From positions 1,902,455 through 1,966,454 of the forward strand of contig NZ_JALAAD010000001.1 of assembly GCF_022984075.1 (NCBI RefSeq): a stretch of 64,000 nucleotides of DNA, written 5' to 3'. Both the position numbers and the translations under genes were made by a program. The stretch's first letter is position 1; every line of letters starts with the position of its first letter. Of the stretch, positions 11,862 through 48,914 are shown in pieces. A model generated the notes under the pieces. The model had not been told where the DNA came from, made no database searches, and worked only from the letters and a program-made list of their open reading frames with translations. This DNA is from Synechococcus sp. C9. Lineage in GTDB: Bacteria > Cyanobacteriota > Cyanobacteriia > Gloeomargaritales > Gloeomargaritaceae.

Positions 11862-12842
11862 TCATTCAACCTTAGCATAGGTCTTACGGTGCCAATGCCA
11901 GGCGGTTTCCACGATGGTGGGCAGGTCAGAATACTGGGGTTGCCAATTGAATAACGCTTTTGCCAAACTCACATCCGCCACCAACATGGGCGCATCCCCC
12001 GGTCGCCGCCCCATCTCCCGCACCGGCACCCGTTGCCCCGTCACCTGCTCCACCGTAGTAATCACCTGCCGCACCGAATAGCCCCGCCCCGTGCCCAAAT
12101 TGACCGTGAGATTCGCCTGCTGATTTTGCACATGGTCCAAAGCCCGTACATGCGCCTGCGCCAAATCCGTGACATGGATAAAATCCCGCACCGCCGTCCC
12201 ATCCGGGGTATCGTAATCCGTACCAAAAATCGGCACCGGTTCCCCCCCCAACAGGGAAAACAAAATCCGGGGAATCAAATGGGTTTCCGGGTCGTGGCAC
12301 TCCCCCAACGCCCCATCTAAATCCGCACCGGCGGCATTGAAATACCGCAGTGCCCCATAGCGCAACCCATAGGCGTGGCTGAACCAATGGAGCGCCCGTT
12401 CAATCGCCCGCTTCGATTCCCCGTAGGGATTGACCGGGTTTTGGGGGTGGTTTTCGGTCAAGGGCAACCACTGGGGTTCCCCATAAATCGCACAGGTGGA
12501 GGAAAAAATACAGGTCTTTACCCCGCTGGACACCATCGCTTCCAAAAGATTTAACGTATTGACAAAATTATTACGATAATACTTAGCAGGGTACTGCATG
12601 GATTCCCCGGCTTCGATGCTGGCGGCACAATGGATCACCGCTTGAATGTCGTAGTTTTGGAACACCGCCTGTAGCCATTCCCGGTCGGCTAGATCGCCGG
12701 TGAGGGCTTCCCCCCATTGCACTGCCCAGGGGTGTCCTGTACTAAAATTATCCAGCACAAGGGGGGTTAAACCCGCCTGCGCCAGGGCTTTGCAGGTGTG
12801 GCTCCCGATATAGCCCGCCCCGCCGGTCACAAGAATCAACAT
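11862..12842 (-). CDS. galE: UDP-glucose 4-epimerase
   Basis: A 326-residue short-chain dehydrogenase/reductase that interconverts UDP-glucose and UDP-galactose using bound NAD. The Rossmann motif [16 protein letters not shown] is at the N-terminus, the catalytic YGESKRAIE (Tyr-x-x-x-Lys) is near residue 146, and the family segments RYFNAAGAD and [21 protein letters not shown] follow. I set the start at ATG 12842, which overlaps the end of the upstream gene by seven bases; the open frame further upstream is inside that gene. Third gene of ugd-uxs-galE. Confidence 0.95.
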
Positions 12843-13771
12843 CGCCGCTGTAAATCCGCAATCGTGTGCCTCAACCCGGTACGCAAATCCACCCGGGGGT
12901 ACCAATCCAGTTTGGTGCGGGCGAGGGTAATGTCCGGTCGCCGTTGTTTCGGGTCATCCTGGGGCAAGGGGCAAAAGTGAATCGGGGATTGGGTGCCGGT
13001 CAATTCCTGAATCACCTGCGCCAAAGCCAATACGGTCAACTCCTCGGGGTTGCCCAAATTCACCGGGTAGGGATAGTTCACCCCCATCAACCGCACAATG
13101 CCCTCGATCAAATCATCAATATATTGAAAACTGCGGGTCTGACTGCCGTCCCCATAAATCGTCAGGGGTTCCCCCCGCAACGCCTGCTGGATAAAATTGG
13201 TCACCACCCGCCCGTCGTCGGGGTCCATCCGGGGACCATGCGTATTGAAAATGCGAATAATCCGTACTGCTAAACCGTACTGCCGATGAAACGCTAATGT
13301 AATTGCTTCCGCATAGCGTTTTGCCTCGTCATAGACACTGCGGGGACCCGTACAGTTCACATGACCCCAGTAGTCCTCCCGCTGGGGATGCTCCAACGGG
13401 TCGCCATAGATTTCGCTGGTGCTGGCTAAAAAAAACTGCGCCCCCTGCTGCCGAGCCAACTCCAGCAGGTGATAGGTGCCCTCACTGTTCACCCGCAACG
13501 TCGCCAAGGGCAACCCCAGATACTTGGGCGGAGAAGCCGGGCTGGCAAAGTGCATCACCCAATCCAAGGGTTCCGTCACCGCCAATGGGGTAATGACATC
13601 GTGTTGAATTTTTTGCACCTGGGGATGGTTGTCCCAATGGGCTAAATTGTCCCAGGAACCCGTACTGCAATTGTCCACCGCAATCACCCGATAGCCCTCC
13701 CGCACCAGGCGATCCGTGAGGTGACTGCCCACAAACCCTGCCGCCCCGGTGAGCAGTACCGTGCCCCCCAT
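12836..13771 (-). CDS. UDP-glucuronate decarboxylase (UDP-xylose synthase)
   Basis: A 311-residue SDR-family enzyme. It has the Rossmann motif [18 protein letters not shown], the UXS-typical stretches [15 protein letters not shown] and [19 protein letters not shown], the catalytic [11 protein letters not shown] (Tyr-x-x-x-Lys) and [18 protein letters not shown]. It converts UDP-glucuronate to UDP-xylose, consuming the product of the UDP-glucose dehydrogenase encoded just upstream. The ATG at 13771 overlaps that gene's stop (ATGA). The two steps make UDP-xylose for extracellular polysaccharide or glycan. Confidence 0.93.
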
Positions 13772-15129
13772 CAGCGTCCCAGCCCCACGTAGGTAAAGCC
13801 CGCCCGCCGCAAGCGTTCCCGGTCCAAAAAATTCCGCCCATCCAACAGCAGGGGGGAGCGCATCAGGGTGGCCAAATGCTCCCAGGGCAAATTCCGATAT
13901 TGGGGCCAATCCGTCACCAACACCAACCCATCGCAGTCCTGGGCGAGGGTCTCCACCGCTTCGCAGTACTGCACCTCCAGCTTGGGCCATTCCCGTTGCG
14001 CCCGGGGTAAGGCCACCGGGTCATGCACCCGCACCCCCACCCCCCGTTCTAACAACTGCTGGGCAATGTCCAGAGCCGGGGCATCCCGCAGGTCGTCCGT
14101 GTGGGGCTTAAACGCCAATCCCAACAGGCCAATCCGGCGGCCTTTGAGAATTTTCAGGGTGTGTAGGAGTTTTTCCACCACCCACTGTCGTTGCTGGGCA
14201 TTCACCAACCGGCTGGCCTGGACAATCCCCATCCCCAACCCGTAATCCCGGGCCGTGGCAATCAGCGCCGCCGTGTCCTTGCCAAAACAGGACCCCCCCC
14301 AGCCGATCCCCGCCTGCAAAAACTGACTGCCAATCCGTTTATCCAAGCCAATCCCCCGGGCAATTTGGGTCACATCCGCCCCCACCCGTTCCGCCAACTG
14401 CGCCATTTCATTGATGAAACTGATTTTCAACGCCAAAAACGCATTGGCCGCATATTTAATCAATTCCGCCGAGGTCAAATCCGCCGTGATCAGAGGCACC
14501 GCCGCCACATCCACCGGTCGGGGCAAAAAACTGGGCGGGGTAAAGGTTTGTTCCAGAATTGGTTGGTACAACGTATAGAGCACTTCCAGGGCTTGGGGGT
14601 TTTGGGTGCCGAGGACCACCCGGTCAGGGTAGAGGGTGTCGTGCAGGGCAGAGCCTTCCCGCAAAAATTCCGGGTTAGAAGCCACCGCAAACCGCACGGC
14701 AGGATTGGTACGGGTTTTCAGGGCTTCTTCGATCAGGGTTTCCACCCAGTTGCCACTGCCGATGGGCACGGTGGACTTATTCACAATCACGGTAAACGCC
14801 TGCCCCAAATGCCACCCCACCCCCTGGGCGGCCTGGCGCACGTAGGTCAAATCGGGATTGCCATCCGGGAGGGACGGGGTACCGACGGCAATAAACACCA
14901 CCTGGGCCGGGGGAATGGCCGTGGCATAGTCGGTGGTAAAGGTGATGTTGGGGCGGGCCAGTTGCAGTAATTCCGCCAGATGGGGTTCATAGATGGGAAT
15001 TTCCCCCCGTTGCAGGCGGGCGACTTTCTCCCCATCCACATCCAACCCCACCACCTGATGCCCTAAGTAGGCTAGAGCCACCCCCGTGGTCAACCCGACA
15101 TAGCCCGTACCGATGATGGCAACCTGCAC
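13771..15129 (-). CDS. UDP-glucose 6-dehydrogenase
   Basis: A 452-residue NAD-dependent enzyme oxidising UDP-glucose to UDP-glucuronate. Visible are the N-terminal nucleotide motif [18 protein letters not shown], the IAVGTPS loop, [10 protein letters not shown], the [11 protein letters not shown] substrate segment, the [13 protein letters not shown] helix and the catalytic-cysteine motif [10 protein letters not shown] (about residue 265). The C-terminal domain has [17 protein letters not shown]. Length is normal. It is the first gene of a translationally coupled three-gene operon (ugd-uxs-galE) supplying activated sugars. Confidence 0.95.
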
Positions 15130-15177: not shown

Positions 15178-18100
15178 TCACGGTGCGTGCCAACGCCCGG
15201 GTTGGTGCAGGAGGGCCGTGGCCGCCGCCGCCGGTAAGGGGGGTGCAAACCAATACCCCTGGCCGTAAATCCTGGTTTGGGGGCTGAAACTGCGTAGGAG
15301 TGCCAATTGTTCCTGGGTTTCGATGCCCTCCGCCACCACCTCCTTGTCCAGGGTCAAGGCCAGGGTGACAATCGCCCGCACCAAATCCCCCCCCTGGGTA
15401 AGCTGTTGGATAAACGAGCGGTCAATTTTCAGGCAATCCACCGGCAACCCCTGCAACCGGGCAAGGGAGGAATAACCGGTGCCAAAATCATCAATACTCA
15501 CCTGCACCCCCTCCTGACGTAAGGCATTCAACGCCTGCCCCACCGTCTGCGGGTCGGCCATCAACACCCCCTCCGTCACCTCCAGCACCAACGCCTGGGG
15601 GGGCAAATGCCATTGCTGCAGGACTTCCCGCACCTGCGCCACCCATGCCTCGGCCCGGCGGAACGAGCGACCCGACACATTCACCGCCAGGGTCAAATCC
15701 GGTTGTACCTGCCGCCATTCGGCTAACTGGGCGCAGGCCGTCTGCATTACCCACTGGCTCAAGGGGTGAATCAACTCCGACTCCTCCGCCACCGGGATAA
15801 ATACCCCCGGGGACACCAACCCCACCCCTGGCCGTTGCCAGCGCACCAGGGCTTCAAACCCAACAATACTGCCCCGCTGTACATCCACCACCGGCTGGTA
15901 GTGCAAGACCAATTCCTGTTGCGCCAAACCCTGCCTGAGGGCCGTTTCCAGTTCCAACTGTCCCTTGATCTGGGCGTGCATCCCCGGGCGGAATACCTCC
16001 ACCCCACAGCGTCCCACCAGTTTCACCCGGTACATGGCAATATCCGCATTGCGGAGAATATCGGCGGGGTCATAGTCCGGGTCGTCATTCACACACACGC
16101 CAATACTGGTGCTGACCACCAACTCCTGCCCCTGCACCCACAACGGGTTTTGTAATGCCTCCAAAAGTCGCTGAGCCACCTGTACCGCCTCCGCCACCCC
16201 CGTCACCGGCTCGAGCAAAACCACAAATTCATCCCCCCCCAACCGTGCCAGCATATCCCCTGGCCGCATTTGGGACTGCAACCGGTTGGCCACCTGCCGG
16301 AGCATTTCATCCCCCACCGAATGCCCCAGGCTGTCATTGACCAATTTGAATCGGTCTAAATCCGCAAACAGCACGGCGTAGTACGTCCCCGCCCGCACGG
16401 CCCGCTGGTGTACCTGGTGCAGACGGTCCATCAAAAAATTCCGGTTGGGCAGACCCGTGAGGGCATCGTGCAGGGCATCGTGGAGCAGACGGGCTTCCAT
16501 CCGTTTGCGGGCCGTGATGTCCCGGTACACCCACACCCATTCATCGGTCCGGGCCGCCGAACTGGACAGGGATAACACCGTCAATTCCACCCAAAAATCC
16601 TGATGGTGTTTGTTATACAGCACCAATTCGGTACGCACTGAAGCCCCCTGTTGGCGGGAATGTTGCAGATATTCCCACTGGGTGAGGTCGGTTTTTTCGC
16701 CACACAATTCCCCCAACCCCAACTGTTGAATTTCCTCCCAGCCATAGCCGGTCATCGCCAAAAAGGTGGGATTGGCGTAGATCACCTGCTGTCCCTGGGT
16801 AATGACAATGCCATCGTTGGCACAGACCACCACCGCTTCCATCAACTGCAACTGTTGCTGGACTTGGTGCGCCTGGGTGACATCCCGACCGACCCACTGC
16901 ATTTCTACCAATTCGCCCCGGTCGTTGAGAATTTCCTGGGCTTGCCATTCCACCCAGCCCAGTTCCCCGTTCCCCCGGCGCAGGGGCTGTTTCCGCACCG
17001 CCAAGCCCAATTCCTGCCGGGAGCGTTGGAGCACTTCCGTGGCCGGCTGTCCCAGATAACGGCATAGCGCCGGATTGGCAAAGGTCAAGCGTCCCTGGGG
17101 GTCATGGCGACAGATGAGTTCGGTTTGGGCGTCCACAATCTCCCGGTAGCGGGCTTCCTGTTGGCACAACCGTTCCACCAACTCCGTCCGGTGCAAGGCC
17201 AACCCCAGGTAATTGGCCACCTGCTGGGCTAGGTCAATTTCCCCCTGTTGCCAAATATGGGGACGGGTGCAGTGGTGCAGGATGAGCAGACCCCACAGGG
17301 ATTCCCGATGGCGGATCGGCAAAACCAAATTGGCTTGGACGCCAAACCGTTGCAATAGCTCCCGGTGACAGGCTTCCAGCGGTGCCGTCGCCACATCCGC
17401 AATGGCTAACACCCGCCCCCGGCGATAGCGTTCCAGGTACTGTGCCGTAAAACAATGATCCTGAATTTGGGTGTGGAGCATCTGGAATTGGGGGTCACTC
17501 AGGGCTTCCACGGCAAAATAGACCGACCCATCCGCCCGCACCGGTGTAATCGCCACCCGATCCGCCCCCAACAACTGCTGGAGTTTGGTCACCGCACATT
17601 GCATCACCGGTTCCACCTCGAGGGATTCTAAGATTTCCGTGCTGAGTTTCACCAAAAATTGGCTGGCGGAATCCTGGATTTGGGTAAGCTGTTCCGCCTG
17701 TTTGCGCTTGGTAATGTCCCCACAGGCCCCAATTAACCCCATGACTTGCCCCTGGGGATGGCGTTGGGGGTAGCCCATACACTCCAGCCAGAGGTCGGTG
17801 TTGTCCGCACAACGCACCCGAAAATCCACCTGGTAGGGCACCCCATCCCGCACCGCCTGCTGATAAACCGCCGTGACCGTCGCCCGTTCCTCCGGATGCA
17901 CCAGGTCAAACCAGTTGTGCCCCAACGCCTGCGCCACCGGCCAACCCGTCATCACCGTCCACTGCCGGTTCACATAGGTGACGTGCCCCTGGGTATCCGC
18001 CAACCAGATCAAAACCGGTGCCTCATCCACCCCCGCCCCCGCCACCATCGGGAGCCACACCCCCACCGCCGTCGTTGCCGATACCGGGGTACATTCCACC

Positions 18101-18327
18101 CAATAGGGTTGCCCCTGCCAGAAACAGGCTTGCGCCTGGGGGGTTTGGGAGCGCAGACAGTCCGCCGCCATTGCCACTAGGGGGGACTCCTCCTGCCCGC
18201 TAATCTTTTCCCAAGCCGGATTCAGGCTCTGAACATCATAGGTACCGTCGGCTTTCTGCTCGATCCAGACCAAGGGATAGGGCAACCCGTGCAAGACTTT
18301 TTGAAAAATGGTTTCCCCCCCATTCAT
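15178..18327 (-). CDS. Cyanobacteriochrome-type PAS/GAF/GGDEF/EAL protein
   Basis: A 1049-residue cytoplasmic signalling protein. Domains in order: a PAS-like segment (about 10-85), PAS (100-210), GAF (220-385), PAS (390-490), PAS (492-610), GGDEF (617-780) and EAL (785-1040). The GAF has the features of a DXCF cyanobacteriochrome: D290-H-C292-F293 and the canonical bilin-attaching C320-H321 exactly 28 residues later, in a context EACHRELLQRFGVQANLVLP. The cyclase motif RLGGDEF (Gly697-Phe701) is intact, and the phosphodiesterase has EAL 825-827 and DDFGTGYSSL. I infer a light-responsive c-di-GMP enzyme. It is a single gene on the minus strand. Confidence 0.9.
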   Translation of the reverse strand: MNGGETIFQKVLHGLPYPLVWIEQKADGTYDVQSLNPAWEKISGQEESPLVAMAADCLRSQTPQAQACFWQGQPYWVECTPVSATTAVGVWLPMVAGAGVDEAPVLIWLADTQGHVTYVNRQWTVMTGWPVAQALGHNWFDLVHPEERATVTAVYQQAVRDGVPYQVDFRVRCADNTDLWLECMGYPQRHPQGQVMGLIGACGDITKRKQAEQLTQIQDSASQFLVKLSTEILESLEVEPVMQCAVTKLQQLLGADRVAITPVRADGSVYFAVEALSDPQFQMLHTQIQDHCFTAQYLERYRRGRVLAIADVATAPLEACHRELLQRFGVQANLVLPIRHRESLWGLLILHHCTRPHIWQQGEIDLAQQVANYLGLALHRTELVERLCQQEARYREIVDAQTELICRHDPQGRLTFANPALCRYLGQPATEVLQRSRQELGLAVRKQPLRRGNGELGWVEWQAQEILNDRGELVEMQWVGRDVTQAHQVQQQLQLMEAVVVCANDGIVITQGQQVIYANPTFLAMTGYGWEEIQQLGLGELCGEKTDLTQWEYLQHSRQQGASVRTELVLYNKHHQDFWVELTVLSLSSSAARTDEWVWVYRDITARKRMEARLLHDALHDALTGLPNRNFLMDRLHQVHQRAVRAGTYYAVLFADLDRFKLVNDSLGHSVGDEMLRQVANRLQSQMRPGDMLARLGGDEFVVLLEPVTGVAEAVQVAQRLLEALQNPLWVQGQELVVSTSIGVCVNDDPDYDPADILRNADIAMYRVKLVGRCGVEVFRPGMHAQIKGQLELETALRQGLAQQELVLHYQPVVDVQRGSIVGFEALVRWQRPGVGLVSPGVFIPVAEESELIHPLSQWVMQTACAQLAEWRQVQPDLTLAVNVSGRSFRRAEAWVAQVREVLQQWHLPPQALVLEVTEGVLMADPQTVGQALNALRQEGVQVSIDDFGTGYSSLARLQGLPVDCLKIDRSFIQQLTQGGDLVRAIVTLALTLDKEVVAEGIETQEQLALLRSFSPQTRIYGQGYWFAPPLPAAAATALLHQPGRWHAP

Positions 18328-47231: not shown

Positions 47232-48914
47232 CTACCACTGGGGCGGATGGGTAAGCAATGCTTCCGCTTCGGCAACATCCACCGGGGGCGAAAAAAGATA
47301 CCCTTGCCCGTAGGCACAACCCATTTCCCGCAATTGCGCCAGTTGGTCCTGGGTTTCAATACCCTCAACCACCACCGTTTTACCGAGGGAATGGGCAAGG
47401 GCAACGATCCCCCGCACAAAGGCAAGATTTTGATCATCCAACGATTGAATCAGGGATTTGTCCACCTTCAACACATCCGTAGGCAAGGTTCGCATCCGTG
47501 CCAAATTGGAATACCCCGTGCCAAAATCATCCATCAAAATCTGCACCCCCAGTTCCCGCAGTTGGGACAACATGGCAATCGCCGCCTCTTCACTTTCCAT
47601 CAATAAACTTTCGGTCAATTCCAATTTGAGATGATTCCCCGGCAAACCGGTCTTTTGTAAAACTTCGGTAATCTGTGCCACCAAATCCGTCTGGATAAAT
47701 TGCTTACTGGAAACATTGACACTCACGGTCAGGGGATGGGCATGGGGGAAGCGCATTTGCCATTGGCACAACTGTTGACAGGCAGTTCGCAGAACCCACA
47801 GACCGATGGGCATGATTAACCCAGTTTCCTCGGCAATGCTAATCAATTGGTCAGAGGGAATCCAACCCGTCTCCGGATGATGCCAACGCACCAGGGCTTC
47901 AAAGCCGACAATCTGACCACTAATCAAGGACACAATCGGCTGATACCGCAGGGACAATTCCCCTCGTTCGATGGCACGGCTCAGGTCGGTCTCCAGGCGT
48001 AACCGATTCCCCGAATCCTCCATCCCAGGTCGAAAAATTTCCAAACGCCCCCGTCCCAAGTGTTTCGCCCGATTGGTCGCCGCCCGGGCAAACCGCAACC
48101 AGTCCTCCGGCTGAGTCACGGGCACATGGCTAAATGCAACCCCCATACTGACGGTGATAAAGGCTTCCTTGTCCTCCAGGGTAAAAGCGGCGGCTAAATC
48201 CCGCTGGATGGCTTCCGCAAGGGCAAGGGCATCCTCCGTATTCGCCACACTTTCCAACAGCAGGGCAAATTCATCCCCCTCCAACCGCACCGCCGTATCC
48301 CCTGGTGCCAACCGCTGGCGCAACCGCCGGGCAATGGCGGCTAACAGTTTATCCCCCACCCGGTAGCCCAAACTGTCATTCACCTGTTGCAGGCGGTCAA
48401 TATCCAAATGCACCACCGCAAACAGTAAACTGGTTTCCACCGTCAACCGCTCCCACAGGGTTTGCAGGAGGGACATGAACATATTCCGGTTGGGCAGACC
48501 GGTGAGCGAGTCATGGTACACCCCCGGCAAAACCGCTGTACTATCGGCGGGTAAACGCATGGACGGGGAGGGGGGGAGGGTGCCTATCGTACTGAGGGCG
48601 ATTTTGTAGGGTCCAATTTGGAAGCGGTCCCCATCCTGAATCTGGCGGTTGGTGCCCAGAAAGTGTTGCCCATTCAAAAACGTGCCGTTGGTACTCTTAT
48701 CCACCAATTCCAGTTCGCCCTCTTTGCCCACAATCAGGGCATGACACCGGGAAACCTGCTTATGGGGCAAAACCACCAGGGTGCCCTCGCTGTCATTAAT
48801 CGCTGTCCGCATGGCTTGTTCATCCCGCCCAAATGCTACCGGTACCGTGACCAGCCGTTGTTCCACAGTGCTTGTGGCTGGGTCTTCCCAACTCAATTGC
48901 AGTTCCACTGCCAT
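47232..48914 (-). CDS. FHA-GGDEF-EAL protein, degenerate cyclase site
   Basis: A 560-residue cytoplasmic protein: FHA domain (about 20-108, with SRCHA and STNGTFLNG for phosphothreonine binding), GGDEF domain (about 130-295) and EAL domain (about 302-555). The cyclase signature reads EGDEF at 212-216, so the first Gly is replaced by Glu and cyclase activity is doubtful. The phosphodiesterase keeps EAL (339-341) and MDDFGTGYSNL. I infer a c-di-GMP phosphodiesterase controlled by binding phosphorylated partners, possibly a target of the Ser/Thr kinase encoded 1.3 kb away. Single gene. Confidence 0.92.
   Translation of the reverse strand: MAVELQLSWEDPATSTVEQRLVTVPVAFGRDEQAMRTAINDSEGTLVVLPHKQVSRCHALIVGKEGELELVDKSTNGTFLNGQHFLGTNRQIQDGDRFQIGPYKIALSTIGTLPPSPSMRLPADSTAVLPGVYHDSLTGLPNRNMFMSLLQTLWERLTVETSLLFAVVHLDIDRLQQVNDSLGYRVGDKLLAAIARRLRQRLAPGDTAVRLEGDEFALLLESVANTEDALALAEAIQRDLAAAFTLEDKEAFITVSMGVAFSHVPVTQPEDWLRFARAATNRAKHLGRGRLEIFRPGMEDSGNRLRLETDLSRAIERGELSLRYQPIVSLISGQIVGFEALVRWHHPETGWIPSDQLISIAEETGLIMPIGLWVLRTACQQLCQWQMRFPHAHPLTVSVNVSSKQFIQTDLVAQITEVLQKTGLPGNHLKLELTESLLMESEEAAIAMLSQLRELGVQILMDDFGTGYSNLARMRTLPTDVLKVDKSLIQSLDDQNLAFVRGIVALAHSLGKTVVVEGIETQDQLAQLREMGCAYGQGYLFSPPVDVAEAEALLTHPPQW

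Follow-up and report, generated by a model that had tools for sequence, protein, structure and literature searches.

The gene at 15178-18327 of the window, which is the whole 64,000-nucleotide stretch of Synechococcus sp. C9 DNA analysed here, encodes what is, by sequence and predicted fold, a dual-cysteine cyanobacteriochrome (CBCR) joined to domains for c-di-GMP turnover. The query protein is very probably a photoreceptor of the DXCF dual-cysteine type with c-di-GMP output, and its closest characterised relatives are SesA, SesB and SesC of Thermosynechococcus. The features of the gene and of its downstream neighbours are as follows.

15178..18327, minus strand: CBCR-GGDEF-EAL gene, 1049 aa
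18034..18327, minus strand: N-terminal segment, residues 1-98, possible degenerate PAS with a weak PAS-like model fold
17689..18033, minus strand: PAS, residues 99-213 (PF08447, 8.1e-17)
17140..17685, minus strand: cyanobacteriochrome GAF, residues 215-396 (PF01590, PDB relatives, model and fold search)
17449..17460, minus strand: DHCF motif, residues 290-293, with the second Cys C292 (codon TGT)
17365..17370, minus strand: canonical bilin Cys-His, C320-H321
16858..17172, minus strand: PAS 3' of the GAF, residues about 386-490 (PF08448, 3.2e-8)
16492..16857, minus strand: PAS, residues 491-612 (PF13426, 1.3e-10)
16003..16488, minus strand: GGDEF domain (PF00990, 1.4e-47; Pfam span 618-773)
16225-16239, minus strand: GGDEF motif
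16255-16266, minus strand: I-site RPGD
15223..15951, minus strand: EAL domain with all catalytic motifs (PF00563, 7.1e-68; Pfam span 796-1030)
13771..15129, minus strand: UDP-glucose 6-dehydrogenase (UGDH) family gene (TIGR03026, over cut-off)
12836..13990, minus strand: NAD-dependent epimerase/dehydratase, UDP-glucuronate decarboxylase (UXS)-like (PF01370)
11862..12905, minus strand: UDP-glucose 4-epimerase GalE (TIGR01179, 408.8 bits, over cut-off)

The open reading frame (15178-18327, minus strand; 1049 residues) contains no internal stops, the Pfam match to its GAF domain lies above the cut-off at residues 239-378, and GGDEF and EAL domains with intact motifs, both exceeding the Pfam cut-offs, stand C-terminal to the GAF as originally predicted. 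The same prediction had counted four PAS domains, three of which reach the Pfam cut-offs, while the segment of residues 1-98 is a probable fourth judged from its model (pLDDT 80), which resembles the PAS structures 3fc7 and 2r78 with a TM of about 0.55-0.62. This segment matched no Pfam family when the protein was scanned in pieces, and the fold search with its model returned no match at E <= 0.001.

The GAF domain carries D290-H-C292-F293 and C320-H321, with C320 the predicted 28 residues from C292. Its phmmer matches are cyanobacteriochromes and phytochromes, including 6oap (2.3e-35), miRFP670nano and TePixJ (3vv4, 3.3e-22), and C292 and C320 fall opposite both TePixJ cysteines, gap-free, in the phmmer alignment and in a profile of 28 GAFs alike, which is the register on which the original prediction had staked its reading. 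In the 28-sequence alignment of CBCR-type GAFs, C320 is found in every sequence and C292 in 27. The DHCF/CH reading is not a product of chance, since the CBCR matches are in register and the alignment is conserved at these positions. An AlphaFold2 model run with the same 28-GAF alignment (mean pLDDT 90.6) adopts the CBCR fold, and every one of its top Foldseek matches in the PDB is a CBCR-type GAF (TM up to 0.87). The domain is a CBCR-type GAF by sequence and fold, in which C320-H321 supplies the canonical bilin Cys followed by His/Tyr, and D290-H-C292-F293 supplies the second Cys in DXCF. The Asp of WXDXXL is one that we take, from AnPixJg2, to be the Asp of DXCF. The WXDXXL position reads IQDHCF in the 28-sequence alignment (I288-Q-D290-H-C-F293), so that the motif defining the red/green XRG type is absent and the GAF belongs with the DXCF types as they have been defined (PMC11284453). 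The TePixJ GAF (3vv4, 4glq) is 32-33% identical to that of the query and shares its fold, with DXCF and CH in register, but TePixJ has an MCP output, unlike the GGDEF-EAL of the query.

Conservation of C292 and C320 within the genus is weak evidence alone, because the genus retains most of the protein's cysteines, 14 of the 19 being shared by five or all six of the relatives. It was therefore set aside as the main evidence, and the argument is carried by the register with characterised CBCRs.

The bilin should be PCB, since the genome encodes one heme oxygenase (over the Pfam cut-off) and PcyA as its sole bilin reductase (333 bits against an NCBIfam cut-off of 206). The GAF would bind PCB at C320 and probably isomerise most of it to PVB. 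C292 would bond the bilin at C10 in the dark, forming a blue-absorbing state; blue light would isomerise the bilin and break the C292-C10 bond, yielding a teal/green-absorbing state. The change, relayed by a helix and two PAS domains, would reach GGDEF and EAL and shift the balance between the making and breaking of c-di-GMP; both the colours and the sign of this regulation are what we infer. Raised c-di-GMP could then act on the one PilZ protein found in the genome, a cellulose-synthase-like transferase, possibly leading to extracellular polysaccharide and settling.

SesA, SesB and SesC are Thermosynechococcus CBCRs that act as light-controlled c-di-GMP enzymes; SesC is bifunctional, with c-di-GMP made in blue and broken down in green light, and SesB is reported to be a phosphodiesterase only, without cyclase activity (PMC5871770, PMC9090330). 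SesC (Tlr0911) was read as L095 in G062 from its size, domains and closeness to a SesA-like gene, SesA (Tlr0924) as L096/L043 and SesB (Tlr1999) as L094. The query protein is SesC-like by layout: L095 shares with it the order PAS-GAF(DXCF)-PAS-GGDEF-EAL, and the two form one continuous alignment over residues 111-1032 (499 bits, 35% identity). The query has one extra PAS; L095 has a counterpart of the PAS at residues 386-490, whereas that at 491-612 falls in an alignment gap, and L095 carries more N-terminal PAS domains. SesA has a DXCF GAF like that of the query but is arranged as CBS-PAS-GAF-GGDEF, without an EAL domain, and SesB combines a DXCF GAF with GGDEF-EAL but lacks a PAS between GAF and GGDEF. 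Despite the strong alignment with L095, orthology with SesC was not adopted, as it is supported by neither tree: the query is unresolved or weakly nearest to SesA in the GAF tree (88/83), and in the GGDEF-EAL tree L095 groups not with the query family but with L115, which the query's own genome encodes, and with a protein from G007, the sister genus. The grouping of the SesC-like output module elsewhere means that the activities of SesC are not simply transferable to the query.

In all seven Gloeomargarita species, the GGDEF active site, the I-site (RPGD or RPSD) and the DxDRFK metal-binding region are intact, as are the EAL, N, ExxE, DDFG, KxD, EGxE and QG motifs. Both cyclase and phosphodiesterase activities are possible because these motifs are kept in every orthologue, and GGDEF-EAL motifs alone cannot tell a net cyclase, a net phosphodiesterase or an enzyme with both activities apart. 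Many GGDEF-EAL hybrids are net phosphodiesterases, and there is a close to even prospect that this light-gated enzyme is not bifunctional but works in one direction, in which case a phosphodiesterase whose GGDEF is regulatory is the most likely form; this would be compatible with the photoreceptor reading. The lack of cyclase activity in SesB points the same way, as does the best NCBIfam match, the Tlr1612 phosphodiesterase family, although this lies far under its cut-off (535 vs 1600 bits) and the family name was rejected for the protein; the retention of both the GGDEF active site and the I-site in every orthologue argues against it.

The host genome belongs to the same genus as its relatives Gloeomargaritales cyanobacterium VI4D9 and Gloeomargarita sp. 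SKYG116, whose proteins are 93% and 64% identical to the query. An orthologue is present in all seven Gloeomargarita genomes, and no match at E <= 1e-150 was found in 52 other genomes drawn as relatives. C320-H321 is retained in all seven orthologues and the second Cys in six. In the seventh (L019 / L026), from the G004 genome, which is a single 3.05-Mb contig, a one-base change of TGT to TCT turns the motif into DHSF and the protein is otherwise intact, so that the family can do without the dual-Cys cycle.

This orthologue without C292 also favours a different photochemistry, in which the GAF photoswitches with a bilin but keeps PCB instead of converting it to PVB, or forms no stable C10 adduct, so that its colours are other than blue/green, for example blue/orange or green/teal. 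Such a domain would differ from the best explanation only in its photochemistry. Two cysteines alone do not reveal bilin chemistry, and AM1_6305g1 still isomerises PCB to PVB after its second Cys is changed to Ser (PMC11284453). Against this stand the PVB and the blue/green cycle typical of DXCF domains (PMC11284453) and the retention of C292 by all but one of the seven species, which make this alternative rather unlikely. For the G004 orthologue itself, a green/teal cycle is plausible, given the AM1_6305g1 result and the green/teal character of those XRG domains that carry PVB and form no C10 adduct (PMC11284453). It is highly improbable that the GAF attaches no bilin and instead has a structural role or binds another ligand, as might be supposed from the non-CBCR GAF of L115, another GGDEF-EAL protein of the genome, since the Cys-His is invariant in all seven orthologues, the Cys is present in all 28 aligned CBCR-type GAFs and the model structurally matches CBCRs.

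The predicted position of the CBCR gene upstream of UDP-sugar genes in the same direction holds here and likewise in all but one of the six other Gloeomargarita genomes. The UGDH gene starts 48 bp downstream of the CBCR gene, and the order CBCR-UGDH-UXS-like-GalE occurs in six of the seven genus genomes, the query included; in G005, the gene after the CBCR orthologue is unrelated and convergent. This arrangement suggests, short of proof, that the CBCR and UDP-sugar genes are co-transcribed. A scan for promoters and terminators gave matches no more numerous than in shuffled sequence. The UXS-like gene has no curated NCBIfam model above its cut-off, and its true start probably lies inside the open reading frame. 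A plasmid search returned only short GGDEF/EAL matches, from unrelated bacteria.

A receptor search for PilZ found one such protein in the genome, a cellulose-synthase-like (CelA-like) GT2 (TIGR03030, 3.1e-149, but under the model cut-off) with RGHVR and NISEGG motifs. It is of the same kind as the Thermosynechococcus PilZ cellulose synthase Tll0007, which binds c-di-GMP and is required for aggregation (PMC5871770). The originally proposed role of the query protein, controlling biofilm, motility or polysaccharide in response to light, is made more likely by this PilZ protein and by the Thermosynechococcus Ses proteins.

Several other proteins of related composition were observed. The window encodes a second GGDEF-EAL protein, with FHA, at 47232-48914 (minus strand), in which the GGDEF motif is EGDEF. 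L115 (L115:301-5520, plus strand; 1739 aa) has the layout CBS-PAS-GAF-PAS-GGDEF-EAL. Its output clusters with that of the SesC-like protein, but its GAF does not resemble those of CBCRs and its EAL seems degenerate (VEALVYW, ADFG). A PixJ-like chemoreceptor of 1379 aa at L097:1243-5382 (plus strand; G000:C1 about 1142742-1146881) combines HAMP and MCP domains with five tandem GAFs, in each of which DPCF and CH are present. A multi-GAF protein similar to this chemoreceptor occurs in the sister genus G007, which also has its own GAF-PAS-GGDEF-EAL proteins (L111 and L112) with DPCF/CY and DSCL/CC motifs.

Gloeomargarita is reported to be the closest living lineage to plastids, and none of the papers retrieved describes photoreceptors of this genus. 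What is newest is the naturally occurring Cys-to-Ser orthologue, the kind of protein itself being known from Thermosynechococcus. A tentative and somewhat doubtful extension of the dual-cysteine reading is that this is a Gloeomargarita-specific light/c-di-GMP photoreceptor beside UDP-sugar genes, in which the change of TGT to TCT retuned the colour in one species, probably replacing blue/green with green/teal, and left the output intact. The query protein offers a compact, testable route from light through c-di-GMP to polysaccharide with one PilZ target, and the serine orthologue makes it possible to test colour tuning by the second Cys in proteins whose own evolution included that change. Conservation across Gloeomargarita, together with the natural loss of one key Cys, makes the protein a useful, modestly new case.
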